Shown: positions 177 through 23,515 of the stretch, piece by piece
Layout of the letters: every line of letters starts with the position of its first letter
Position numbering within the stretch: position 1 is the first letter of the stretch
Virus record (IMG/VR): IMGVR_UViG_3300045116_000161
Coordinates: 1-24,284 of that record
Length of the DNA: 24,284 nucleotides
Direction: 5' to 3' (one strand)
Origin: a virus
Notes under the pieces: model-generated
What the model was told of the DNA's origin: nothing
What the model saw: the letters and a program-made list of their open reading frames with translations, nothing else
Databases searched by the model: none
Position numbers and translations under genes: made by a program

Positions 177-611
177 TCAATGACCGAGGACCTCCTTGAT
201 CTTCTCGCCATCCTCTTTGACGAAGGTAGCGCTAATTTGATTTACTGCCTCTATCGCAAGATTTGCGAGAGGTTGTAAGTTCTTGGCCTTGATCCGGCTT
301 TCTCCGGTCAGAAAGCCAATGACTAATTGGCTATCGCCGTGAAATGTAAATTGCAGCTTGCTCTTACTACGCTGTTGTATCTGGCAGGCGTATTGCAAGG
401 CTAAGACTGCTGTTGCCAATTCGCTCTCATTATTTGAGAAACTGCCATATTCCTGGCTGTAGTGATCGGTTATGATTTTCTCGCCACTCTCTTTTACGAT
501 ATTCATAGTGACCTTCTCACCGTTGTGGAAGGTCCTAAACGAACCATATCCTCGTCTCAGAGACTTGGATTGGTTGTTCTTGCTGCCACCGTCAAACCAA
601 ATATCAATCAT
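177..611 (-). CDS. RNase H-like (ribonuclease HI fold) protein
   Basis: 144 aa when started at the ATG at 611, which has AGAAAGGA six bases upstream; an in-frame ATG at 689 would run through the promoter region and is less likely. The RNase HI carboxylates are visible: D7 in IWFDGGS, E64 in NNESELATA and D93 in FHGDSQLVIG, followed by a KAKNLQPL segment seen in short phage RNase H proteins. The protein stops at VLGH, so the C-terminal region that supplies the fourth carboxylate in cellular RNase HI is absent. Such proteins cleave RNA in RNA-DNA hybrids, for example when replication primers are removed. Encoded just after ssb in the same direction but with its own promoter-like element (646-664), consistent with a replication role. 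The fold is fairly sure; activity is unproven. Confidence 0.8.
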   Translation of the reverse strand: MIDIWFDGGSKNNQSKSLRRGYGSFRTFHNGEKVTMNIVKESGEKIITDHYSQEYGSFSNNESELATAVLALQYACQIQQRSKSKLQFTFHGDSQLVIGFLTGESRIKAKNLQPLANLAIEAVNQISATFVKEDGEKIKEVLGH

Positions 612-645
612 TGCGTATCCTTTCTGAGATTGAATTATCCCAAAA

Positions 646-691
646 GAATTAGAAAATGTGTGTCGTTGCGATCTCATGTTCGATCGCAACG
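646..691 (-). promoter_or_regulatory. Leftward promoter-like element 1 with an upstream palindrome
   Basis: Read on the minus strand, GACACACATTTTCTAATTC (664-646) matches the element found ahead of five other leftward genes. It directly abuts a 10-bp inverted repeat, CGTTGCGATC (664-673) with GATCGCAACG (682-691). It lies 35 bases upstream of the RNase H-like start. The conserved TCTAAT is a plausible -10; no good -35 is visible. Confidence 0.5.
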
Positions 692-709
692 CCAGTATAT
701 TGCTCGTTA

Positions 710-818
710 CTGGAAATGGCGTGATCTATCGCCATTTCCAGGCTGTCAGGCCAGCCTTCGAAGAGATTTTCCTTTCTCAGATAAGTTCCGACCCTGGTAT
801 TCTCTATACCAGGGTCGG
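710..818 (-). terminator. Paired hairpins downstream of ssb
   Basis: CCGACCCTGGTA (788-799) pairs perfectly with TACCAGGGTCGG (807-818) around 7 bases, starting 22 bases past the ssb stop. A second perfect 12-bp hairpin has arms 710-721 and 730-741 (core GGAAATGGCG). Neither has a T-run, but position and stability suggest transcription ends or RNA is stabilised here. Confidence 0.55.
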
Positions 819-839
819 CGATAGGTCATGCTCTATGGT

Positions 840-1271
840 TTAGAACGGGATCGCCTCGCCGCTGCTCTCGGCAGCGGGCTGGCTTTTGCCCTGTTCGCCA
901 TTGTCGCCATTGTCGCTGCTGCCCTCTTCCCGGCTGGACAGGAAGCGAATGGCGTTGGCAGTGACCTCATACGAGGACCCTGGACCATTCTGACCCTGCC
1001 AGATCTTCGGGCCGCCGGTCTTGGGATCGGGAACCAGGCGACCTTCAACCAGCACTTTCGTGCCTTTCTTCAGGTACTGGTTGCAGCTCTCCGCCTGTTT
1101 CCCCCAAGCGGCAACCTTGAACCAGATCGTTTCTTTGACCAGCTGCCCGTCCGCGCCGATGTAAGCGCGGTTGGTAGCAACTGAAAAATTCGTCACTGCC
1201 TGGCCAGAAGGGGTATAACGCATCTCGGGGTCTCTGCCGAGATTTCCAACGATTATGACTGTGTGAAACAT
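840..1271 (-). CDS. ssb: Single-stranded DNA-binding protein
   Basis: 143 aa. The N-terminal OB-fold carries the family signatures NLGRDPEMRYTPSGQ, VTNFSVATNR, ETIWFKVAAWGKQAE and GTKVLVEGRL, in the usual order over residues 1-110. A Ser/Glu/Gly-rich linker follows and the end is EAIPF, the IPF tip that recruits partner proteins in bacterial SSBs (usually DDIPF; here less acidic). It coats single strands during replication and recombination. The ATG at 1271 has AAGAAAGG seven bases upstream. Single-gene unit: promoter-like element at 1337-1356 and hairpin at 788-818. The PDPKTGGPKIW segment recalls Chloroflexota SSBs from memory; this was not searched. Confidence 0.95.
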   Translation of the reverse strand: MFHTVIIVGNLGRDPEMRYTPSGQAVTNFSVATNRAYIGADGQLVKETIWFKVAAWGKQAESCNQYLKKGTKVLVEGRLVPDPKTGGPKIWQGQNGPGSSYEVTANAIRFLSSREEGSSDNGDNGEQGKSQPAAESSGEAIPF

Positions 1272-1691: not shown

Positions 1692-2023
1692 AGTTCACCT
1701 CCCGGCCACACTTTACCGTGTGACCAGCATTCACTCTTCTCAGTCACTTCTGCCCCACATTCAGGGCAGAAGCGGTACTCGTTTGTCGAGGGATCGATGT
1801 TGATCTTTAACAGATCATCAATCTCTCTATGCCCATCAAGTGAGACCGCGAGCATGGTTTCCAATACTCCAGGTGACACGAATGCCACCTGGTAATATCG
1901 ACCAGTAATTCTCACCTGGTCAAGTTTGACCTTGTTCCCCCTCACGGGAACTAAGATCACAATATCATTCTCATCATTTTTGGGCGTAATGCCTGTTTCC
2001 ACGTCATAATAAATGTATGACAT
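1688..2023 (-). CDS. Zinc-ribbon-tailed hypothetical protein, 111 aa
   Basis: The N-terminal part (residues 1-80) is beta-rich and unrecognised. The C-terminus has a compact metal site: C86-x-x-C89 (FCPECGAE) and C99-x-x-H102 (CWSH). The ATG at 2023 follows a purine-rich SD (GAGAGGAAGAA). First gene of a two-gene unit under promoter-like element 3; the second starts inside its stop codon. The zinc site suggests nucleic acid or protein contacts, but no function is assigned. Confidence 0.65.
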   Translation of the reverse strand: MSYIYYDVETGITPKNDENDIVILVPVRGNKVKLDQVRITGRYYQVAFVSPGVLETMLAVSLDGHREIDDLLKINIDPSTNEYRFCPECGAEVTEKSECWSHGKVWPGGEL

Positions 2024-2072
2024 TTCTTCCTCTCTTCCTCCCGCCGACTAAGATAGATAACCTAAAGGTCAT

Positions 2073-2110
2073 CACCAGTATTAAAGAATGTGTCATTTAT
2101 AATACCATCT
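2073..2110 (-). promoter_or_regulatory. Leftward promoter-like element 3
   Basis: Minus strand: TGACACATTCT followed by TTAATACTGGTG (2095-2073), with TGGTATTAT just upstream. It sits 50 bases before the 2023 start. CACCAGTATTA on the plus strand is identical in elements 3, 4 and 5. Confidence 0.5.
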
Positions 2111-2138
2111 ATCTATCCATATATACCCCTTCAAGAAT

Positions 2139-2237
2139 ATAGCTTGTGATAATCTTGTGTATATACATTGGCTATACACGTATATACATCGTGGCTGCAC
2201 AATAGCTTGTGATAACCTAGTGTTTCAAAATGAAACA
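2139..2237. promoter_or_regulatory. Repeats and palindromes between a leftward and a rightward promoter
   Basis: Three nested patterns: (a) a 22-bp near-identical direct repeat beginning ATAGCTTGTGATAA at 2139 and 2202 (two differences); (b) GTATATAC, an 8-bp palindrome, at 2159 and 2180, 21 bp apart (two helical turns); (c) the perfect palindrome TGTTTCA-AAA-TGAAACA at 2221-2237, ending 20 bp before the -35 of the rightward promoter. This is the arrangement of an operator or a small replication-origin region. No protein in the window is an obvious binder. Confidence 0.55.
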
Positions 2238-2256
2238 TGATTGGCATCGAAAACAC

Positions 2257-2285
2257 TTGACTTTTTGTGAAAATATTGATATAAT
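2257..2285 (+). promoter_or_regulatory. Near-consensus sigma70-type promoter, rightward
   Basis: TTGACT (2257-2262), a 17-bp spacer, then TATAAT (2280-2285). This is the best housekeeping promoter seen by eye in the window, and it points rightward inside a leftward gene region. Expected start near 2292. No open frame with an SD follows; a structured RNA does. Confidence 0.75.
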
Positions 2286-2291
2286 CTGCGC

Positions 2292-2386
2292 CGATCAAGT
2301 ACTGCCGCACAGTAAGAAACCGCCCGTGAGCGGTTTGCACATCGAAAGAGAGCGCATCATTTACGGAATGCGCTCTTTCTTTCGAT
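2292..2386 (+). ncRNA. Candidate small structured RNA, about 95 nt
   Basis: Three consecutive hairpins follow the 2257-2285 promoter: TACTG/CAGTA (2300-2304, 2310-2314); AAACCGC/GCGGTTT (2317-2323, 2330-2336); and a 17-bp stem (2341-2357 with 2368-2386, one 2-base bulge, loop 2358-2367) whose distal 9 bp, AGAGCGCAT/ATGCGCTCT, is followed by TTCTTTC, so it may be the terminator. Every base from 2300 onward falls in or near a stem. No known RNA family is recognised. It could be a regulatory or antisense RNA; without a clear T-run it could also extend rightward, antisense to the HNH gene, to the terminator at 3006-3026. Confidence 0.55.
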
Positions 2387-2468
2387 AGATGTAGCAAAAG
2401 ACCGCAGCCTCTTATAGGTGCAATGTTTTTTGCGTTAGGCACAATTCTCCCGGAGTCGATATTGCAAT

Positions 2469-2966
2469 TTATGATAAAGGATGTCTACCCCAAGGCTCGG
2501 GCCAATCATCTTCAAAGTCTGATGGGACATAGCGTTCTGTATGAACTGCTTTATGGCAAGAATGGCACACAGTAACCAGGTTATCAAGGTCATTATGAGA
2601 ACGATCCCAATCTATATGATGGACATTGAGTTGTGCTTCCACGGCGTCTTTCCCGCATATTCGGCACATATAGGAATCACGCTCAAGGATTTGGGCGCGG
2701 ATCTTAGTCCAGCCTGGAATGTCGCTACTGCTGCCAGCTGTTTTATATCTTAGAGCTCTTGCTTGTATATGGCGTGATTTTTTGATTGGCTTTTCTTTTT
2801 TAACAGGTTGTTTTTCTGTTTCGATGGGTTGTTCTTCTATCTCGATAGGCTGTTCTTCAGTAAAGATCTCTTCATCATATCTAGGGTTCTTAATGTAGTC
2901 GCCACAAGACCCTTTTATCCATTTGTATTCCATGAATACCTTCCTTTTTTTATCGAAATATACCAT
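2469..2966 (-). CDS. HNH endonuclease
   Basis: 165 aa from the ATG at 2966 (AGGGGA upstream). An ATG at 2933 (residue 12) has the stronger SD, AAGGAAGG five bases upstream, and may be the true start. Residues 36-63 are a charged linker of imperfect EEQPIE/EKQPVK repeats. The HNH core spans 86-145: C101-x-x-C104, LNVHHIDW (H116, H117), ND-x-DNL (N129) and CHSCHKAVH (C134, C137, H142), all key residues present. HNH enzymes nick or cut DNA with one metal ion; in phages they act in packaging or as homing nucleases. Free-standing here, with non-coding DNA on both sides, so a mobile homing role is possible. Confidence 0.9.
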   Translation of the reverse strand: MVYFDKKRKVFMEYKWIKGSCGDYIKNPRYDEEIFTEEQPIEIEEQPIETEKQPVKKEKPIKKSRHIQARALRYKTAGSSSDIPGWTKIRAQILERDSYMCRICGKDAVEAQLNVHHIDWDRSHNDLDNLVTVCHSCHKAVHTERYVPSDFEDDWPEPWGRHPLS

Positions 2967-3005
2967 AATTTCCCCTACTCGCAGTCGTCAGACAATTGAT
3001 TACAG

Positions 3006-3026
3006 GGCGGCTAACGCCGCCTTTTT
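3006..3026 (+). terminator. Rho-independent terminator, rightward
   Basis: GGCGGC-TAAC-GCCGCC followed by TTTTT, a textbook terminator on the plus strand. No rightward gene precedes it, so it most likely ends antisense or small-RNA transcription starting at about 2292. Confidence 0.7.
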
Positions 3027-3370
3027 GTCTTATCGAATAGAGCCATTCTTACCAGCGTAGGTTATGGTTTGCGGGGGTTATGGGATTCTGGTAGGGAGCA
3101 GTGGGGTATTCTCACCGGCGGTGGTTCATACCCGATTAGATTGCAGGGGCTTGCCAGATTAGAGTGGGTGGGCGGGGGTAGTGGCGCCTTAATGGCTACA
3201 GCGTGGACATCAGGCGGGATGGGTGGGGGTAGGGGGTCACGTCTTTGACAGTACATCACCGACATCACGTTCCCGCCTGCAAATGGGGGTCACGCCTAGG
3301 CTAAAGCATCCCGATCACGCTTCCCACCAGAGTTCACGTTTCCGGTGTCAGAAACTCACGATCACGCCTT
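3027..3370. other. Non-coding G-rich region with TCACG repeats
   Basis: No credible gene. The plus strand is rich in G-runs: GGGATGGGTGGGGG then TAGGGGG (3216-3236) fits a four-run G-quadruplex with 1-2 base loops; looser runs lie at 3071-3103 and 3166-3178. TCACG occurs at 3237, 3265, 3290, 3315, 3334, 3356 and 3362, mostly 19-28 bp apart. TACATCACCGACATCACG (3252-3269) is repeated exactly at 4991-5008. An imperfect palindrome at 3338-3355 matches 49-66 on the opposite strand at 17 of 18 bases. Likely a cis-acting site (origin, partition or packaging); which one is unknown. Confidence 0.5.
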
Positions 3371-3405
3371 AAAAAAAACTCCTCCCTGGTGAAAACCAGG
3401 GAGGA
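3371..3405 (-). terminator. Rho-independent terminator of the 3417-4650 operon
   Basis: On the minus strand an 11-bp stem (3380-3390 with 3395-3405, GAAA-type tetraloop) is followed after one base by T8 (3378-3371). It starts 12 bases beyond the stop of the last gene of the operon. Confidence 0.85.
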
Positions 3406-3416
3406 ATCGGTGCGGG

Positions 3417-3698
3417 TCATGGGCAGTCAGCCAAATCGGCCCGATCCCAGGGGATCCATGCGGGCCAGCCTGCCGCCCGCTCAGCGCGCAAGCGAGCGCT
3501 TGCGCGCTCTAATTCGTCGAGCGCGCAAGCGAGCGCATCGGCGCGCGCATAGTAAAATCCGCTCGACCGCAGCGGCGCAAGGCCGCGGCTGTCGAGGTTG
3601 CCACATGGGTCTATGACCCATGCGCCATTCAGTTCTTCCCCTCTGATCGAGGGGTCGAATTTGACTTCAACTTTTAAACCACAGCGTGTTACCTTCAT
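3417..3698 (-). CDS. Hypothetical protein, 93 aa, with GC-rich repeat segment
   Basis: Not recognised. The ATG at 3698 has AGAGGA eight bases upstream. The N-terminal third (residues 1-35) is a likely beta-strand region; residues 52-75 are an Ala/Arg/Leu/Glu helix (ALDELERASARLRAER) encoded by GC-rich palindromic DNA (3483-3536) unlike its surroundings. The WVIDP..GNLD segment recurs in degraded form just beyond the next gene (3820-3858). Third gene of a leftward operon, preceded by hairpin CCCGGC/GCCGGG (3714-3730) right next to its SD. Confidence 0.55.
   Translation of the reverse strand: MKVTRCGLKVEVKFDPSIRGEELNGAWVIDPCGNLDSRGLAPLRSSGFYYARADALACALDELERASARLRAERAAGWPAWIPWDRADLADCP
3483..3536. 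repeat. Palindromic GC-rich repeat inside a gene
   Basis: AGCGCGCAAGC (3483-3493) pairs with GCTTGCGCGCT (3498-3508). AGCGCGCAAGCGAGCGC is then repeated directly at 3520-3536. The core CGCAAGCGAGCG also appears, inverted, in the palindrome at 4562-4595 inside a neighbouring gene. Confidence 0.7.
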
Positions 3699-5196: not shown

Positions 5197-5430
5197 TCAG
5201 ATCGGCCAGAACCCAAGCAGAGAGATTTGATAGAGAGCGTATTCTCTACGCTCTCTATTTATCCCCATATGCTCGCGGAATTCTTCCGCGAGTTCGAGCT
5301 GCTTGATTTCGTCATCAACTGTGAGTTCGAGCTGCTTGATTTCGTCATCAACTGTGAGTTCGAGCTGCTTGATTTCGTCATCAATCCCTCCGTCTGTGTG
5401 GAGGGACTTCCAGTCAAATTCGGTGCTCAT
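5197..5430 (-). CDS. Hypothetical protein with three 11-aa repeats, 77 aa
   Basis: The ATG at 5430 has a consensus AGGAGGT seven bases upstream. Residues 17-47 are three near-perfect copies of DDEIKQLELTV, a heptad-like acidic amphipathic segment that probably forms a short coiled coil; the C-terminus is REHMGINRERREYALYQI. The repeat count comes from exact DNA duplication (5290-5384). Function unknown; oligomerisation or protein contact is the likely use of the repeat. Confidence 0.65.
   Translation of the reverse strand: MSTEFDWKSLHTDGGIDDEIKQLELTVDDEIKQLELTVDDEIKQLELAEEFREHMGINRERREYALYQISLLGFWPI
5290..5384. repeat. 33-bp tandem repeat, about 2.9 copies
   Basis: Units starting GAGTTCGAGCTGCTTG at 5290, 5323 and 5356 are identical at nearly every base. 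The unit length is a multiple of three, so copy number can vary without breaking the reading frame. Almost no divergence implies recent expansion. Confidence 0.9.
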
Positions 5431-11481: not shown

Positions 11482-11737
11482 ACACTACAACCAGATTTCA
11501 GGAATTGAATGTATTGATGTTATTGAATATTTCAATTTCAATATGGGAAATGCTATCAAATACCTTTGGCGTGCCGGACTGAAAACGGAAGATCCGATTG
11601 ATGATCTGAAGAAAGCTAAATGGTATTGTGAACGAGAAATAAGTCGGTTAGAGAAAGCCTGGAAACCTGAAGATCCGAAAATAACTACTGGTGAACCATC
11701 TTTCTATATGTACGCGCATACTTTCAGAGTTGGATGA
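11459..11737 (+). CDS. DUF3310 family protein
   Basis: 92 aa from ATG 11459 (GGAG seven bases upstream). Signatures HPEHYNQ, GIECIDVIEYFNFNMGNAI, KYLWRAGLKTEDP and DLKKAKWYCEREI are those of DUF3310, a small helical phage protein often encoded near nucleotide-metabolism genes; its role is not established. Overlaps the deaminase end and, as ATGA, the TerL start. Confidence 0.85.
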   Translation: MSTIDHPEHYNQISGIECIDVIEYFNFNMGNAIKYLWRAGLKTEDPIDDLKKAKWYCEREISRLEKAWKPEDPKITTGEPSFYMYAHTFRVG

Positions 11738-13695
11738 GTTATCTTACTGATGCAGATAAAAGAATACTTCCGCTTGCCCTGAGACAAAATGGCAACTGGT
11801 ATATTGCTACTCAATGGTATCTGAGAAATTGGGAACCTTTGCCCTATCAGTACGCCTATCATCAAATAAATTTGATGAACAGCGTATGGCTGGCTGGCGT
11901 GGCGTGTGTAAGTGGTGATACGCCAATCCTTGATCCGATTGATGGAACTAATCTTAATATCGCTGATCGTGTTGGCAAGCCCTTACATGTTTTGTCTTGG
12001 GATGATGGAAAGTTTGTTGTAACAAAAACGAATCCGCCTTTCCTAAAAGGTCGGGCGGATTTGTATCAAGTCTTGTTATCTACTGGACAATCAATCAATA
12101 CAACACTCGCTCACCGTTTTCTAACTCCATCTGGTTATGTTTCTCTTTCAAATCTTTACGTCGGATCTTTGATTGGTGTTCTTTCCAGTCAGGATTCGAC
12201 CAATCCTTATGTTTTGCCATATATACTCCTAAAGAACAGATTTTCTAATTATTATAATGCGAACACCACTTTTGTGGATGTCGTAGATATAAAATATATT
12301 GGAACTGGAGATTTTTACGATCTAAATGTACCTATAACTAATAACTATGTTGCCAATGGGATTATTAATCACAATAGCGGGAAAACCGTTACATCTGCTG
12401 CCTCATGTGTTATTGATTGTCTTTCTATTCCCTATTTCAAATGTCTGAATACGAGTGTTACTGCGAAACAGGCTGAATTACCTTTTGATAAGTTCATGTC
12501 CTGGTATGAGGGTAATTCCAGACTAGAACATCTGGTAGAGCATATCAAATTACGCCCTTGGCCTGTTATATATTTCAAGAATTTCTCAGAGTGGGAGTTC
12601 CGTACTGCCGGTGTAGATGCTCGTTTTATTCGGGGTAATGAGTATGATCGTATTGTGTTTGACGAATGTGGTCTTGATTATAATGGGGAGATTGTAAAGG
12701 TATTACGTTCTCGCTTGAGAGGCGTTAGACCAGATGGCGCCACGCGTACAGCCAGGCTGGATACAATCACTTCTCCAACTGATGCACCCTGGTTGAGAGA
12801 GAGGTTTGATAAAGGCTGGAAAACCTCGGATACGTTTGATCCTGTACAGTATATCTCTCACCGTGCCAGGACCAGGGATAACACAAAACTCACCGAAGAG
12901 CAAATCGTAGCCATGGAGTCAGAATATACCGACGAAATGGTCGATGTGGAAATGAATGCCATGTTCCCCGATTATGGACTGGCTACGTTTCCTAAACGTC
13001 ATATCATCGCGTGTACCAGCCAGGCGTTGAATGATGTCTTAGAAATGGCAGTAAATCCTGAGGATGGCAAGATAAAACGTGGATATAGCATGGAGGAACA
13101 TCCCAGGCATGGGATTACAAAGTTCGAGTTCGCTATCAATCCTGGTGGAACTTATATCATGGCTGGCGATCCTGGTACAGATGATCCGCCTAAACGTAAT
13201 GCCGGGTGTGTAATAGTGGTCGATATCAGTAAACATCCGGCTACGATGGTGTATTTTGATTGGGTATCCGGCAAGGGTAGCTATATGCCGTTTTTGAATA
13301 GCTATAAGTATGCCATGAATAAGTATCGGCCAGAAGTAAAGCTGATAGACACTACCAGCACCCAAAAAGCCATGCAGGAGTTGGCCTTCTCGGAAGTGGG
13401 AATAGAAACAGATGGCTTCAATTTTTCCAGTGATAAACAAGGCGCTCTTAATGCTCTTTCACTCACTCTTTCCAATCACGACATCTGTTTTCCTATTGTA
13501 AAAGGTATAGATCGTCAATTATCAAACTACATGCGTGATAAGGATGATAAGATTGCTCAGGACATTGTAATGACTTTAGCAATGGCCGCTTATGGAATGA
13601 GACTACGAATTTCCGAGACAAATAATCAAACTTCTTATTCCTACATCCCAAATCGCCGTAGCAGAGCGCACGGTAGACCACGCAGGAGACGCTGA
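11734..13695 (+). CDS. terL: Terminase large subunit, intein-containing precursor
   Basis: 653 aa as translated; 496 aa after removal of the intein at residues 58-214, a normal TerL length. ATPase domain: Walker A formed only after splicing (LAGVA joined to SGKT, with K217), Walker B RIVFDE (306-311). Nuclease domain with RNase H-like acidic residues D479 (MAGDPGTDD), D539 (KLIDTT) and D610 (AQDIVMTLAMA). TerL pumps DNA into the prohead and cuts the concatemer. No small terminase gene is recognised nearby. The stop overlaps the next start (TGATG). Confidence 0.93.
   Translation: MSYLTDADKRILPLALRQNGNWYIATQWYLRNWEPLPYQYAYHQINLMNSVWLAGVACVSGDTPILDPIDGTNLNIADRVGKPLHVLSWDDGKFVVTKTNPPFLKGRADLYQVLLSTGQSINTTLAHRFLTPSGYVSLSNLYVGSLIGVLSSQDSTNPYVLPYILLKNRFSNYYNANTTFVDVVDIKYIGTGDFYDLNVPITNNYVANGIINHNSGKTVTSAASCVIDCLSIPYFKCLNTSVTAKQAELPFDKFMSWYEGNSRLEHLVEHIKLRPWPVIYFKNFSEWEFRTAGVDARFIRGNEYDRIVFDECGLDYNGEIVKVLRSRLRGVRPDGATRTARLDTITSPTDAPWLRERFDKGWKTSDTFDPVQYISHRARTRDNTKLTEEQIVAMESEYTDEMVDVEMNAMFPDYGLATFPKRHIIACTSQALNDVLEMAVNPEDGKIKRGYSMEEHPRHGITKFEFAINPGGTYIMAGDPGTDDPPKRNAGCVIVVDISKHPATMVYFDWVSGKGSYMPFLNSYKYAMNKYRPEVKLIDTTSTQKAMQELAFSEVGIETDGFNFSSDKQGALNALSLTLSNHDICFPIVKGIDRQLSNYMRDKDDKIAQDIVMTLAMAAYGMRLRISETNNQTSYSYIPNRRSRAHGRPRRRR
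11905..12375 (+). mobile_element. Mini-intein in TerL Walker A motif
   Basis: 157 aa. Starts with catalytic Cys (CVSGDTPIL, block A), has NTTLAHRFL with the block B His, FYDLNVPITNNYVANG (block F) and ends INHN followed by the +1 Ser (block G). All splicing residues are present. There is no room for, and no trace of, a LAGLIDADG or HNH homing domain between blocks B and F, so it cannot move on its own. It interrupts the P-loop between A57 and S215; unspliced TerL cannot bind ATP. Confidence 0.92.
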
Positions 13696-14146
13696 TGCCC
13701 AATGAACGAGAACACACAATCGCCACAATAGGATCGTATGCATCCATCGCTACCTTAATGGCTGTCAATCACCAACCAGTAGACTATATTGCTGCCTGTG
13801 CTGCTGGTTTCATAACCAGTTTTTGGATCAATCCAGACCTGGACCTTTCCAAGAAGCTTCCAAAAGACATCAAGAAATTCCCCTGGTGGGTATTGTGGTT
13901 GCTCTACGGTAAGTTTTTCAAACACAGGTCATTCTGGACACATACTCCACTGATCGGAACAACTTTGCGTATTGCTTATGCTCTTGGCGTTATCCTAATT
14001 GTTCTTAACCTGATGGGGATACATTACAATATATATAACCTATACCTGGGTGGTTTTTATTCGGTATTGTTGTGTCGGATATCATTCATATATCCTTGGA
14101 TATCCTTACGACAACATTAAAAAGGGTGATAAAATCGTTTGAATAA
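13695..14146 (+). CDS. DUF2227-type putative metal-binding membrane protein, frame-shifted
   Basis: Frame 1 (from ATG 13695) carries the family motifs: REHTIATIGSYASIA, INPDLDLSKKLP, then KFFKHRSFWTHTPLIGTTLR, and a membrane segment (ALGVILIVLNLMGI). It stops at 14120 after a doubtful tail. The -1 frame from about 14039 to a TAA at 14146 reads WFLFGIVVSDIIHISLDIL, the expected family C-terminus. The crossover lies in 14039-14062, which includes T5 (14054-14058). Sequencing error, mutation or programmed frameshift are all possible. The family is membrane-associated and probably metal-dependent; role in phages unknown. Confidence 0.7.
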
Positions 14147-14521: not shown

Positions 14522-16024
14522 ATGATACTAAGTGACTTTTCTGATCTTTCTAAAGTAAGTCCTGAAACACGGAACTCGTGGATTGGCGAGATTGCAATCC
14601 GTGAGAAATATCGTTCCTATTATTCGGGGGATATTTTCAAAGATACCGTTCCAGCGGAGGAACCTGTTGGCGAAGAAGAACCAGAACTCTATCCGGTTGG
14701 AATTAATCTTGTCAAGATGCTTACCACCGCCCAGGCAGATGCCTTATTTGGCGAATGGGAAGAAGATATTGTTAAATTTGAACCAGGACAGAACGCAGAG
14801 GTTTCTCAACCGGAGAAAGATGCGTCGGATTTAGCCAGAAAGATCCTCAGAAACAGTAATGCCAATTCTATGTTATGGGAAATGGCATTAGAACGTGAGG
14901 TGTATGGTGGGTCGCCAATAAAGATTACACCAGCGTTGAAGTTATCAAGTGGAGTAAAGTGGGATCGAATTGCGTTGGGCAGTTTCTTCCCAATTTGGGA
15001 CCCTGACGATATAGATAGTCTGCTAGAGGTTTATATTGTCACTGAAATGACCAGGGATCAAGCCAAGGCCAAGTGGGGCATTGTAACTGGTGATGATACA
15101 GTCAGACGTGTCGAACATTGGACGAATACAGTCTATGAAAATACAGTTGGTAATGTGCGTATTGATGCTTATTCAGGTATTAATCCTTGGGGTTTCGTAC
15201 CGTTTGTTTACTTTCCCCGTTTTCGTTCAGACCATTGGTGGGGAGATAGTCTTACTGAAGATCTCATCCGTGTTCAAGATGAACTAAATATGCGCATTGC
15301 CGACCTGGGTGATGCAGTCAATTACAATACCCATCCCATTAAATGGGCCTACAATCTGCCTAAATCATTTGATACAAAAAACTATCCGATTGGGTCCAAC
15401 ATCCTTTGGGATGCGGGTAAAGTGTTGGGGAGCAGCCCGGAACCACACATTGAAATCCTGGAAGCTAAAAATCCAATACCATCTGGCACGTTTGACTATA
15501 TCAACTTTCTCTATGATTGGGGAATGACATCTTCTTTCATTCCGCCTGTTGTTTTAGGACGAAGTGAAAGTGCATCGCAGAGGGCTGGAATTACTGTAGA
15601 ACTAAAGATGCAATCTTTAGTTCGTGCAACACGTCGCAGCCGGTCGTATATGTCTACCGGGCTACTACGTGCTATGCGTATGAGTGCCCTGATACTCTCA
15701 CAGAAGGACCTCCCTGGAATATCCAAACGAGCATTGTCCGTTCTGATCGAGGGATCATTATTACCTTTTTATGCCCCTGTATTGCCAAGAGATCAGGAAA
15801 AAGTTGTAGACGAGATCACCAAACGATTATCTACTACTCCGCCGACAATCTCCCTCGAAACATCGGTAAAGAAATTAGGTGATGGGACTTCAGAGGTTGA
15901 GCGTATTCGTACCATGCTCAAGGAAGATGATTTATATAAGCGTGATCAGCCTCCGAAAGAGATCGGGATGAATTCCGGCGCCGGAAACGCTCCAAAGAAG
16001 AAAACGGAGACAAATGGTGAATGA
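14522..16024 (+). CDS. Phage portal protein
   Basis: 500 aa, near the usual length. Recognised by position after TerL and by portal-like features: MLTTAQADALFGEW, the wing and stem region (LGSFFPIWDPDDIDSLLEVY; GFVPFVYFPRF), RVQDELNMRIADLGDAVNY and IPPVVLGRSESASQRAG followed by the long-helix segment. The portal is the dodecameric ring through which DNA enters the head. Unusually the ATG lies 3 bases after a terminator hairpin and has no SD; no better in-frame start is seen nearby. Stop overlaps the next ATG (ATGA). Confidence 0.85.
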   Translation: MILSDFSDLSKVSPETRNSWIGEIAIREKYRSYYSGDIFKDTVPAEEPVGEEEPELYPVGINLVKMLTTAQADALFGEWEEDIVKFEPGQNAEVSQPEKDASDLARKILRNSNANSMLWEMALEREVYGGSPIKITPALKLSSGVKWDRIALGSFFPIWDPDDIDSLLEVYIVTEMTRDQAKAKWGIVTGDDTVRRVEHWTNTVYENTVGNVRIDAYSGINPWGFVPFVYFPRFRSDHWWGDSLTEDLIRVQDELNMRIADLGDAVNYNTHPIKWAYNLPKSFDTKNYPIGSNILWDAGKVLGSSPEPHIEILEAKNPIPSGTFDYINFLYDWGMTSSFIPPVVLGRSESASQRAGITVELKMQSLVRATRRSRSYMSTGLLRAMRMSALILSQKDLPGISKRALSVLIEGSLLPFYAPVLPRDQEKVVDEITKRLSTTPPTISLETSVKKLGDGTSEVERIRTMLKEDDLYKRDQPPKEIGMNSGAGNAPKKKTETNGE

Positions 16025-16773
16025 CATTTACCGGAATGGATTTACTGAGAGTATGGGATGTTGGACGAGAGAATGGTCTTTCACAACGTCGTTTGGCAAA
16101 GTATCTTGGTATGCCATTCAATTCTCTGCATGGAAAGATATTCCGGCAACAAAAGAAAATTGCAAACAGCTTGGAGATGACTTTGAGTACTTATAAACCT
16201 GTCTTACTGAAAGGTGCGGTATTCGACATCGAAACAATGAGTTTTGCTACTGGCGGTATTCGTAATCACATTGTGTGTACGTGCATTTTGTCGTTGGATA
16301 GTGATGAGATAAAGACAATGAAACTGTCTTTCAAAGATCATCATGATGATCGGAGGGTATTGGAGGAGATTATTGGTGAACTGAGTGAATATGACATCCT
16401 GATTGGGCATAACATTGCTGAATTTGACTTCAACTGGCTGAATAGTCGCCTGATCTATCACGGGATGAACCAACCTGATAAACGCTGGCTATATTATGAC
16501 ACTTACCAGCGTGCGAGGGCAATGGCGATCAAGGCTGATCGAAAATCATTAGGCTTTCTGGCTGATTTCTTTCGTATTGAGGGATCGAAAACGTCAGTTA
16601 TGCCGGTTTCGTGGAGCATGATTGACAGTCCAAAAGAGGATGAGTTTGAAAAGTCTTTAGCTGACATTATTTATCACTGCGAGTGTGATGTTCGGCTAAA
16701 TCGAGAACTATTCTTTGCTTTATGGGCAAGAGATAGATTACCAAATGGACTTCCTGTTACAAAAAAGTGGTGA
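16021..16773 (+). CDS. DnaQ-like 3'-5' exonuclease (DEDD type)
   Basis: 250 aa. Exonuclease motifs: FDIETMSF (D69, E71), ILIGHNIAEFDFNWLNSRL (D136) and YHCECDVRLN (D223; a His stands at the spacing where a Tyr is usual in PolB-like exonucleases). Residues 1-58 form a likely helix-turn-helix (NGLSQRRLAKYLGMPFNSL). The fold removes nucleotides from DNA 3' ends. It is encoded inside the head module, overlapping portal, not near a polymerase; its job may be in end processing. Exonuclease fold good, role unknown. Confidence 0.8.
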   Translation: MTFTGMDLLRVWDVGRENGLSQRRLAKYLGMPFNSLHGKIFRQQKKIANSLEMTLSTYKPVLLKGAVFDIETMSFATGGIRNHIVCTCILSLDSDEIKTMKLSFKDHHDDRRVLEEIIGELSEYDILIGHNIAEFDFNWLNSRLIYHGMNQPDKRWLYYDTYQRARAMAIKADRKSLGFLADFFRIEGSKTSVMPVSWSMIDSPKEDEFEKSLADIIYHCECDVRLNRELFFALWARDRLPNGLPVTKKW

Positions 16774-20705: not shown

Positions 20706-22400
20706 ATGACTGCTGCCGAGGGATCTTATTTAGGATTTGCAAAACAAACTCTACAGGGATCGAAGGCTTTAGCGCCATCCCTGTTTAAATATCTGTTATT
20801 TCGTCAAGGTCAGGTGGGGCCTCAAGGGGCTGTGTTACCCCTTGATGCCGAGATTGGTGATGGAGCATTACTGCGGTCGCTGGTAAAGGCTGGTGTGACT
20901 GTAAATGGTGCCATTGATTTTATCCCCCGACCTGAGACGTTGGGTTTCTTCTTGTATGGTGTAACTGGAAATGTTACAACAACTAAATCTACAACGATAA
21001 ATGCAAGTCATTCAGCTTTAAAAATCACTGGTTCTAGTGGAATTGCTACTGGTTCCTTTTCAGTTACCATGACCGATTCGATGCAACCATCTACAATGGA
21101 CTATGTAGTTGCCTATGCTACTGCTGGCGTTACCGGAACTCTAACGATTACCGGTACTGCTGATGGACGTGTTGGTGATACAGAAGATATTGTTTTGAGT
21201 GGTACAACAAAGAAATTTTCTACTAAGACATGGACGTATATTAGTGGTGTTACTTATGCTCATTCCGGGAGTACTGGAACTGTCTATGTCGGTTATCCAT
21301 CTTATTACAAGCATGAATTTGAACTGAATATTGATCAGTTTGATGCGCCATATTGGACTACTCGTTTTGCACCTGGCGGATTATGGGGTGAGGAGTATGC
21401 CGATTGCCGTTTCAATGCTCTTGGGTTGGAGTTCAGGGCTGCTAATTTCTTGAATGGCACTGTGGGATTTATCGGGATTACTCCAACCAAAGTGAGTACA
21501 GACAGTACTGCATACTACACGTCAATTGCTAACGATCACGTGTTTGGTACATCCATTACTTCTTTTACCAATAAACAGCCAACTGATATTCTTGGTGCTG
21601 GTGAAGGTGCATTTGTTCGTCTTGCACCGAGTTTAGCCACCAGTGTAAATGTCACTGTGACTGGTACTGTGAATGGTGTGGCCGGAGTTACTGAGACGGT
21701 TGATTTTTCTATTGACAGTTCTACACCTTTACTAACTACCAACGTGTTTACTGCCCTATCAAATATAACCATACCTGCTGATAGTGGTAAGACAATGGAT
21801 GTTGGTTATGTACCGGCCAATGATTATGGGGAATGGGATCCGGTAGCTAAGATTGATGGTGGCCCTCAATTCTTGTCGTCTACTTCTGGAAGTGAAGTAA
21901 CGATCAATCCTGGAACCGAAACTGCTCTAAAAGTTCTATCTGGCGCAGTAGTGGCGACAGCCAATATTCCGCTGGATGAGCAAATGTATGTTGGGTCTTA
22001 CTTCCCTGCCGCTTTGGATATTGTGTCCAAGTCTTTCATGGTCAATCTGACTGTAAAAGTTGAGGATGAAGAGCTATACACACAGATGATGTATAACAAG
22101 GGTTATGTCGGATCTACAAATTTGGCGCAGGCATGGGTAGCAAATATTCTAAAGGCAGGCTTCAATCTTGTTTTAAGTAGTGATCAGTATATTAGCGCTA
22201 CTGTTCCAACTCAGTTTTATTCATTAGCTGTTCAGGCGGATGGTAATACAGGTGATAGCTCCAATGTTTATTGGACAGCATCACCGATAGGTTTACGGGC
22301 GCAGCGGCAAGTCATTATGAACTTGACTGGTGTTGTGACTGCCAGCTCTACCAGCCCGATCAAGTTTACTTTATACAACAATCGTGCATCTTATTCATAG
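20706..22400 (+). CDS. Major tail tube protein with two Ig-like insertions
   Basis: 564 aa. Flanking parts match the next gene almost throughout (MTAAEGSYLGFA, KYLLFRQGQ, PLDAEIG, FIPRPE-x-LGFFLYG). Extra segments at about residues 92-200 and 266-373 resemble each other: an Ig-like strand set (VTGTLTITGTADGRVGDTED; VNVTVTGTVNGVAGVTETVD) ending in VYVGY and MDVGY. Tail tube subunits polymerise into the DNA conduit; inserted Ig-like domains project outward. SD AAGGAAGG. Confidence 0.75.
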   Translation: MTAAEGSYLGFAKQTLQGSKALAPSLFKYLLFRQGQVGPQGAVLPLDAEIGDGALLRSLVKAGVTVNGAIDFIPRPETLGFFLYGVTGNVTTTKSTTINASHSALKITGSSGIATGSFSVTMTDSMQPSTMDYVVAYATAGVTGTLTITGTADGRVGDTEDIVLSGTTKKFSTKTWTYISGVTYAHSGSTGTVYVGYPSYYKHEFELNIDQFDAPYWTTRFAPGGLWGEEYADCRFNALGLEFRAANFLNGTVGFIGITPTKVSTDSTAYYTSIANDHVFGTSITSFTNKQPTDILGAGEGAFVRLAPSLATSVNVTVTGTVNGVAGVTETVDFSIDSSTPLLTTNVFTALSNITIPADSGKTMDVGYVPANDYGEWDPVAKIDGGPQFLSSTSGSEVTINPGTETALKVLSGAVVATANIPLDEQMYVGSYFPAALDIVSKSFMVNLTVKVEDEELYTQMMYNKGYVGSTNLAQAWVANILKAGFNLVLSSDQYISATVPTQFYSLAVQADGNTGDSSNVYWTASPIGLRAQRQVIMNLTGVVTASSTSPIKFTLYNNRASYS

Positions 22401-22411
22401 GAGAGTGAAAT

Positions 22412-23515
22412 ATGACTGCTGCTGAAGGATCTTATTTGGGATTTGCTCGTCAGACTGGTGGTAAAGGATCCGGTATTCTTACTGACGCAAATTTTAAGTA
22501 CTTATTGTTTCGCCAAGGGCAGCTTGCTCCTGCACCAATGACGATTCCATTGGATGCGGAGATTGGCGGTGGCGCCATGATCCGTTCGATGGTGAAGGCA
22601 GGTGTTTCTGTTAGCGGTGCTGTTAACTTTATCCCTAGACCAGAATCGTTAGGATTTTTCTTATATGGTATGACTGGTAGTGTTTCTAAAGCTGGTCCTT
22701 CCGATTCCGCGTATACTCATACATTCAAAATGGCCGCTAATCAATTCTCTGCTCCATATTACACTGTGCGTTATTCTCCTGGTGGAATGTGGGGTGAAGA
22801 ATATATTGATTGTCGTTTCAGCGCCCTTGCTTTAGAGTTTCGTGCTGCCAATTATGTGTCTGGAACTATTGGTTTTTCAGGAATTACTCCTGAAAAACAG
22901 CCCGCTACTGGATCGCAGAATAGTGGCGCTTTAGATCAATGGGGTGCAACTGCAAGAGTAGATAGTGGTCCGCAGTTTGTTACTGCTGTTTCTGCCAGCG
23001 GGTTTTCCTTTGATGGTGGTAGTATTTCTGAATATTCTATTCTTGGCGGATCTTTAGTGTGCGCGTCTAACATGCCAATGGATGAACAATACTCTATTGG
23101 ATCTTATTACCCGGCGGATATGGACATTGTTTCTCGTTCGTTCATGATCAGTTTGCTAATGAAGGTTACTGATGAGGAACTTTATACCAAGCTAATGTAC
23201 AGCAAGATTTATAACGGTACTAGCAACCCTGTTCAGGCGTGGGTAGCAAACATCCTGAAGGGAAATTTCTCGCTTACTCTAAAATCTGATCAGAATATTG
23301 GTGCTGGTAGTACGCCATATTCTTTGACTGTTGCTACTGATACTGGAACTGGCGATAATTCAAATGTCTATTGGAGTGCTACTCCTATTGCATTACGCGC
23401 TCAGCGCCAGGTGGTTATGAATTTGACTGGTTTAGTTACTGCTACTCATGCTAATAGTGTTGGTTCTGATCCAATTACATTCACATTAGTAAATGGACGA
23501 TCCAGCGATTACTAA
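22412..23515 (+). CDS. Tail tube protein paralog without insertions
   Basis: 367 aa; conserved with the upstream protein at both ends and in the middle (SPGGMWGEEYIDCRFSALAL; PMDEQYSIGSYYPADMDIV; IALRAQRQVVMNLTGLVTA), but lacking both about 105-aa insertions. The pair is a tandem duplication or a deliberate two-subunit tube (decorated and bare). SD GGAG. Most late tail genes follow directly. Confidence 0.75.
   Translation: MTAAEGSYLGFARQTGGKGSGILTDANFKYLLFRQGQLAPAPMTIPLDAEIGGGAMIRSMVKAGVSVSGAVNFIPRPESLGFFLYGMTGSVSKAGPSDSAYTHTFKMAANQFSAPYYTVRYSPGGMWGEEYIDCRFSALALEFRAANYVSGTIGFSGITPEKQPATGSQNSGALDQWGATARVDSGPQFVTAVSASGFSFDGGSISEYSILGGSLVCASNMPMDEQYSIGSYYPADMDIVSRSFMISLLMKVTDEELYTKLMYSKIYNGTSNPVQAWVANILKGNFSLTLKSDQNIGAGSTPYSLTVATDTGTGDNSNVYWSATPIALRAQRQVVMNLTGLVTATHANSVGSDPITFTLVNGRSSDY

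Follow-up and report, generated by a model that had tools for sequence, protein, structure and literature searches.

A mini-intein in the Walker A motif of a phage terminase large subunit, very probably an internal-deletion remnant of a mobile intein with an antisense HNH endonuclease gene

The window, which is the whole stretch of 24,284 nucleotides analyzed here (IMG/VR virus record IMGVR_UViG_3300045116_000161), encodes a terminase large subunit (TerL) precursor, followed downstream by portal, major capsid, and tail genes. The C-extein of this protein matched the phrog_2 terminase large subunit (E = 4.6e-18). TerL is interrupted within its Walker A motif by an insert comprising residues 58 to 214, which begins with CVSGDTPIL, runs from C1 to H156-N157, and is located at the insertion point AGVA/SGKT (the slash marks the junction; Table 1). 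Immediately 3' of TerL, a DUF2227 protein is encoded (positions 13695 to 14120, plus strand), which is annotated as metal-binding and uncharacterised. A 3'-5' exonuclease-like protein (RNase_H_2, DNA_pol_B_exo1; 16021 to 16773, plus strand) is located in the head module between the portal and capsid genes. Two adjacent paralogous tail proteins (20706 to 22400 and 22412 to 23515, plus strand) both possess the N-terminus MTAAEGSYLGFA, and the first of them is enlarged by an additional domain of approximately 200 residues. On the minus strand, a small protein (ORF 5197 to 5430) harbors three perfect 33-bp tandem repeats (5290 to 5384) that encode the 11-residue repeat DDEIKQLELTV. A free-standing HNH endonuclease (PF01844; 2469 to 2966, minus strand) belongs to another sequence family than the HNH relic inside the intein described below, with a weak motif match only.

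Table 1. Positions of the TerL gene, its mini-intein, and the antisense relic in the window
Feature	Position	Strand	Basis
TerL precursor	11734..13695	+	ORF list; 653 aa, 496 aa once the intein is removed
Walker A, N-terminal half, A54-G55-V56-A57 (last N-extein residues)	11893..11904	+	Sequence; contiguous in intein-free relatives, AGIA/[STAC]GKT
Mini-intein, 157 aa, class-1 type	11905..12375	+	PF14890, TIGR01445, TIGR01443, AlphaFold2, Foldseek
Block A, C1-V-S-G-D-T	11905..11922	+	Sequence; no variation at C1 and D5 among 20 related inteins
Block B, T67-L-A-H70 (TxxH)	12103..12114	+	Sequence; in 20 relatives H70 invariant, T67 nearly so
C-terminal block NYVANGIINHN	12343..12375	+	N151, G152, I153, H156, and N157 invariant in 20 inteins
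+1 Ser and remaining Walker A, S215-G-K-T	12376..12387	+	Sequence; TIGR01443 covers the junction
Putative relic of an HNH homing-endonuclease gene, 41 codons plus stop, MAKHKDWS joined to NPDWKEHQSKIRRKDLKEKHNQMELENGERVLY	12095..12220	-	Profile match, phase, start alignment
Shine-Dalgarno AGGAG, 5 nt ahead of the relic ATG	12226..12230	-	Sequence
-10-like TATAAT of the presumed promoter of the relic	12251..12256	-	Aligns with TATAAT of L030 and L005
Weak -35-like TCCACA, 16 nt ahead of the -10 box	12273..12278	-	L030 here: TTGGCA-18-TATAAT

The insert is a mini-intein that splits the Walker A motif of TerL. The initial annotation had proposed this from the letters alone; its coordinates and residues were exact, and Pfam, NCBIfam, AlphaFold2, and Foldseek agreed with it. 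Pfam assigned Intein_splicing (PF14890, E = 3.9e-14) and no other domain to the insert, and the NCBIfam models TIGR01445 (27.6 bits, cut-off 24.5) and TIGR01443 both exceeded their curated cut-offs. The best PDB sequence match was the Ssp DnaB mini-intein 1mi8 (E = 1.3e-7). An AlphaFold2 model computed from a 20-row alignment had a mean pLDDT of 88.9, with low values only around residues 91 to 120, and the top Foldseek matches of this model were DnaB and RecA mini-inteins, among them the Ssp DnaB mini-intein with E = 1.7e-12 and NpuDnaB with an rmsd of 1.3 Å. The N-terminal Cys, the TxxH motif, the HN dipeptide followed by Ser+1, the HINT fold, and the existence of insert-free homologs are all those of a class-1 intein. 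The mini-inteins of Ssp DnaB, Npu DnaB, and Mtu RecA share with that of the window the class-1 fold, C1, TxxH, HN/S, and a loop that replaces the endonuclease. The window intein differs from them in host gene and site, which is TerL at x/SGKT, and in a scar in which an opposite-strand gene appears to be partly preserved.

In intein splicing, the exteins are generally joined via C1, the terminal Asn, and the +1 residue. The intein of the window should be excised after translation in this way, joining A57 to S215 and restoring AGVASGKT. Before splicing, the packaging ATPase would be unable to bind ATP, and it is a sound expectation that the packaging ATPase activity of TerL requires splicing. 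Alternatively, the element might be a dead, non-splicing intein in a defective phage, an explanation for which nothing specific speaks, other than that the contig is a fragment. This is very improbable since every catalytic residue is preserved, the C-extein is free of stop codons and frameshifts, and a packaging phage would not be expected to survive with an unspliced TerL.

Relatives of the window were obtained by capsid, portal, and TerL-alignment scans of IMG/VR, and a single-protein TerL scan of viral contigs gave no match. The TerL relatives in IMG/VR were 54 to 69% identical to the window over the C-extein; in INPHARED, neither a close relative of the window TerL nor a match to the intein of the relative L005 was found. 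Intein-free homologs aligned across A57/S215, for which the initial annotation had suggested a search, were present in at least 18 homologous phage contigs, in which [AG]GIA/[STAC]GKT was unbroken across the exact site. Because these homologs are uninterrupted there, the insertion point can be assigned precisely to a single codon boundary within the Walker A motif. Homologs that keep the segment as a folded domain lacking the splice motifs, which would have contradicted the intein assignment, were looked for among the TerL relatives, and none was found. A survey of mycobacteriophage inteins describes in its sections on TerL the inteins TerL1-a to -e in the ATPase domain, with two sites in the P-loop, and judges splicing to be essential for an active motor (PMC5050341). 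According to the same sections, TerL1-a is located between K and T of GKT and TerL1-b one residue off, whereas the window intein is located before S-G-K-T, three residues upstream of the T that flanks TerL1-a (PMC5050341).

Two relatives, L005 and L030, contained an intein of 351 aa at the site of the window, and in each of them a complete ORF for an HNH endonuclease of 233 aa was positioned antisense to the intein. A third antisense-HNH intein was found in a distant TerL (L018). The extra approximately 190 residues of the L005 insert contained no Pfam domain above the threshold in frame; a candidate in-frame endonuclease was rejected, its sole Pfam match being sub-threshold (E = 0.1). The initial annotation had stated that no endonuclease is present in the 157 residues of the window intein. 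This holds for the reading frame of the intein, in which PF14890 alone was found in the window as well as in L005, but the minus strand had been overlooked. There, a putative HNH relic (Table 1) is translated as MAKHKDWSNPDWKEHQSKIRRKDLKEKHNQMELENGERVLY followed by a stop codon. Its codons 1 to 8 match the N-terminus of the HNH protein and the remaining approximately 33 codons the C-terminal tail. In a hmmsearch with the profile of the L005 and L030 HNH proteins, the relic scored best among the 717 peptides from six-frame translation of the window (E = 3.9e-5, 18.7 bits). The relic occupied the position of the intact antisense genes in L005 and L030 and shared the antisense phase of all intact genes, its start ATGGCAAAACATAAGGATTGGTCG aligned with ATGGCACCCCACAAGGACTGGTCG of L030, the start region could be aligned to L030 and L005 at the nucleotide level, and the relic overlapped the codons of block B. 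Because the relic is short, its E-value is moderate when taken alone, and position, phase, start codon, and Shine-Dalgarno sequence carry the rest.

An ordinary mini-intein that was never associated with an antisense gene, and whose minus-strand ORF resembles HNH proteins by chance, is decidedly improbable. A relic of only 41 codons and an HMM score of 18.7 bits would be compatible with such a coincidence; its first rank among the window peptides, its place and phase, the joining of both HNH ends, and the ATG, AGGAG, and TATAAT at aligned positions are not, and a like deletion exists in another pair of inteins. Because both HNH ends are retained in antisense and the sense frame is kept, the window intein reads as an internal-deletion remnant. 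With the 41-codon relic in place of a complete antisense HNH ORF, it is, as judged from its sequence, derived by deletion from an intein that had an antisense endonuclease gene, and not an intact member of this kind.

The second pair consisted of L104 and L110, with L104 corresponding to L110 minus 486 nt (162 codons), flanks that were 97.9% and 94.4% identical, and the HNH tail remaining in L104. The HNH tail was also retained in the mini-intein of L082, and mini-inteins occurred in several lineages, namely, the window, L082, L104, and L118. The existence of mini-inteins in several lineages may also be read as the mini form being ancestral and the antisense HNH gene being gained later by the relatives. 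This is most unlikely, since the window, L104, and L082 retain pieces of HNH, which are unexpected in an ancestor that never contained the gene.

To survey such inteins, the degenerate DNA pattern NGI-x-HN/[ST]GK[ST] was searched over IMG/VR, which yielded at least 119 matching stretches, and the antisense-HNH profile was run on these stretches. Antisense HNH was found at no fewer than 39 loci, all of them in antisense phase 2, counted from the end of the intein; among the matches listed, neither of the remaining antisense phases was represented, and in-frame HNH matches were weaker and in other inteins. The requirement for an open sense frame was subsequently dropped to remove ascertainment bias from the stop-codon test, and this repeat gave at least 38 full-length antisense HNH_3 loci with one sense stop overall, 29 of which remained after removal of near-duplicates. 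The single stop was that of L120, an otherwise intact antisense-HNH intein, and may be a sequencing error or indicate a dead copy. HNH_3 (PF13392) was present in 23 of the 23 antisense ORFs examined, with a best E of 2.6e-13, and Intein_splicing (PF14890) in all 20 inteins examined. The arrangement was also found in three metagenome-assembled genomes (L167, L169, L170). Nine of the 10 C-exteins examined were terminases from several PHROG families, and the tenth was a DNA helicase. This helicase (phrog_62; L134, positions 1851 to 3506, minus strand) contains an intein whose HNH gene is likewise antisense and in the identical phase, and the antisense-HNH kind is therefore not confined to terminases. 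Among the other P-loop inteins of the sample (n = 71), 6 matched the phrog_2 terminase, and most were helicases and other ATPases.

The antisense phase places the third position of the HNH codons opposite the second position of the sense codons. Shuffling of synonymous codons in 28 non-redundant HNH genes predicted 186 sense stops, and none was observed (each P ≤ 0.006). The identity of the HNH frame was higher than that of the sense linker in 406 of 406 pairs. In pairs with 60 to 80% HNH identity, the mean values were 0.66 for HNH and 0.34 for the sense linker, and the differences at HNH codon positions 1, 2, and 3 were 1677, 1315, and 3276, respectively. Since HNH identity exceeds that of the linker and the changes are concentrated at the third HNH position, the HNH frame is under purifying selection, and the sense linker is selected chiefly for the absence of stop codons. 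Alternatively, the long antisense ORFs of the related inteins may be functionless by-products of codon bias, as antisense ORFs arise readily in GC-rich genes. This is extremely improbable: the ORFs occur at 34 to 55% GC, the catalytic motif of HNH_3 is conserved in each of the 23, Shine-Dalgarno sites are present, changes fall on the third position of the HNH frame, and the sense linker is the unconserved partner.

Expression signals preceded many of these genes. At the first antisense ATG, a Shine-Dalgarno match of at least 4 was found for 24 of 29 genes compared to 17.5% of control positions, and six-base matches for 8 of 29 compared to 0.9% of the controls. A sigma-70-like promoter score of 10 or higher within 110 nt upstream occurred in 6 of 26 genes versus 1.4 expected, which is a modest enrichment, most members being without such a site; over 200 nt upstream, the promoter search gave no general enrichment. 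A perfect TTGACA-18-TATAAT preceded the antisense gene of L055. The divergence of the HNH protein correlated with that of the intein (r = 0.84), and the correlations of these two with the divergence of the extein were lower (0.59 and 0.64), and some pairs with approximately 60% HNH identity were only 25% identical in their exteins. By these correlations, intein and antisense HNH gene evidently move as one unit.

The element was also present in cultured phages. Phage Ymer and its relatives, together eight Pectobacterium and Dickeya phages, shared the whole TerL-with-insert at 95.8 to 100% identity, and those records with an annotation label the product "hypothetical protein". For Ymer, the antisense HNH sequence was read out, and the other seven phages gave a match at the equivalent position. 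In Pseudoalteromonas phage PHS3 (L174, KX912252), the TerL frame is continuous through the intein; the record annotates the antisense ORF as "HNH endonuclease" (APC46236) and places the TerL start after it. Pseudoalteromonas phage AL (L176, MT002875), a phage of the same host species, possesses the exact empty site in a TerL whose exteins are 98.3% identical to those of PHS3. The junction DNA of both phages was identical at 200 of 200 positions on one side and at 197 of 200 on the other, and the difference there was exactly 900 bp. A linked endonuclease and allelic presence or absence were found in relatives of the window, as antisense HNH loci and as the PHS3/AL pair, and not in the window itself. 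Beside TerL, PHS3 has a further insert of approximately 950 bp, which corresponds to a gene annotated as DNA methylase and is missing in AL.

Regulated splicing has been proposed for some other inteins, and the initial annotation had suggested that splicing could time packaging. With the intein residing in Walker A, packaging would have to await splicing, and the intein may have been kept because delayed splicing benefits the phage. Such a regulated packaging timer is improbable, and the proposal found no support: at least 18 homologous phages are without an intein at this site; the intein is sporadic and allele-like, tracks with a selfish endonuclease, and varies between near-identical phages; and no regulatory feature pointing to conditional splicing was identified in the sequence. 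Because the distribution is sporadic and allele-like, the evidence points instead to a selfish-element origin as a homing intein, with the antisense endonuclease gene largely deleted in the window.

The window contains a class-1 mini-intein in the Walker A motif of TerL that very probably arose by internal deletion from a mobile intein with an antisense HNH gene. From the gene arrangement, we infer the following course of splicing, antisense expression, cleavage, and homing. In the ancestor, the homing endonuclease would have been a separate HNH gene on the opposite strand at the position conventional for the endonuclease, equipped with a separate ribosome-binding site and, in a subset of members, also with a promoter of its own. 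Where the gene is intact, translation of the antisense transcript would supply an HNH protein that cleaves TerL genes lacking the intein at the conserved P-loop codons, and the intein would be copied into the cut gene during repair, leading to its spread. The sense strand of the HNH gene would be kept stop-free only for read-through of TerL, with the linker leaving together with the intein. In the window, approximately 190 HNH codons would have been deleted with the sense frame preserved, leaving the 41-codon relic; homing would have been lost, and splicing kept, presumably because TerL is essential.

In descriptions of inteins, the homing endonuclease forms a domain within the protein that is spliced. 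The in-frame LAGLIDADG or HNH homing inteins resemble the antisense kind in the location of the endonuclease coding region between blocks B and F, but in the latter the endonuclease is a separate antisense gene outside the spliced protein. I-HmuI, an HNH endonuclease of phage SPO1 (PDB 1u3e), is encoded in a group I intron. It shares the HNH_3 core with the antisense HNH protein, differs in the DNA-binding part, and was the only clear PDB match; the structural match was weak overall (Foldseek E = 0.07, probability 0.98), no Foldseek match of the HNH model being below 1e-3. Opposite-strand homing genes in group I introns and an out-of-frame HNH gene in a phage methylase are already known. The Porphyra nuclear group I introns are likewise self-splicing mobile elements with an opposite-strand homing gene that is often degenerating; their splicing is that of RNA, so that no translatable sense strand is needed, and their His-Cys box endonuclease belongs to a different nuclease family (PMC2585584). 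The ShiLan element in a phage methylase, as portrayed in the available text of its report, is similar in that an HNH gene is hidden in an insertion that leaves the host frame open, but it has no splicing domain, and its HNH gene uses an alternate frame and a GTG start (PMC11855218). The elements described here combine an intein, with Intein_splicing in 20 of 20 cases, with an antisense HNH gene preceded by a Shine-Dalgarno sequence. Searches of the open-access PMC literature found no intein described as containing an antisense endonuclease, and the available text of the mycobacteriophage survey makes no mention of an antisense or HNH endonuclease in terminase inteins (PMC5050341).

Because the endonuclease is a gene on the other strand and not a domain of the spliced protein, several hundred bases of these inteins would be coding on both strands, for a folded nuclease on one and on the other merely for the absence of stop codons, which makes them an exceptionally clear example from nature of overlapping antisense genes. 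The antisense HNH gene accounts for domain-less inserts in annotated phage terminases and for split or mis-started gene annotations. With the spread over several distinct TerL families, the occurrence in cultured phages, and the PHS3/AL pair, homing, expression timing, and selfish-gene decay become directly testable. As a tentative extension, which is possible and on balance somewhat doubtful, the TerL P-loop inteins may form a widespread unreported mobile class in which the opposite-strand promoter separates the endonuclease from late TerL expression, enabling early action on co-infecting genomes; the antisense transcript may restrain TerL, and the relic in the window may still be transcribed. 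In a terminase-like P-loop intein (L108, positions 376 to 1242, plus strand), the linker holds an HNH ORF of 213 codons that shares the strand of the intein but not its frame; seen once, this indicates that antisense is not the sole hidden arrangement.
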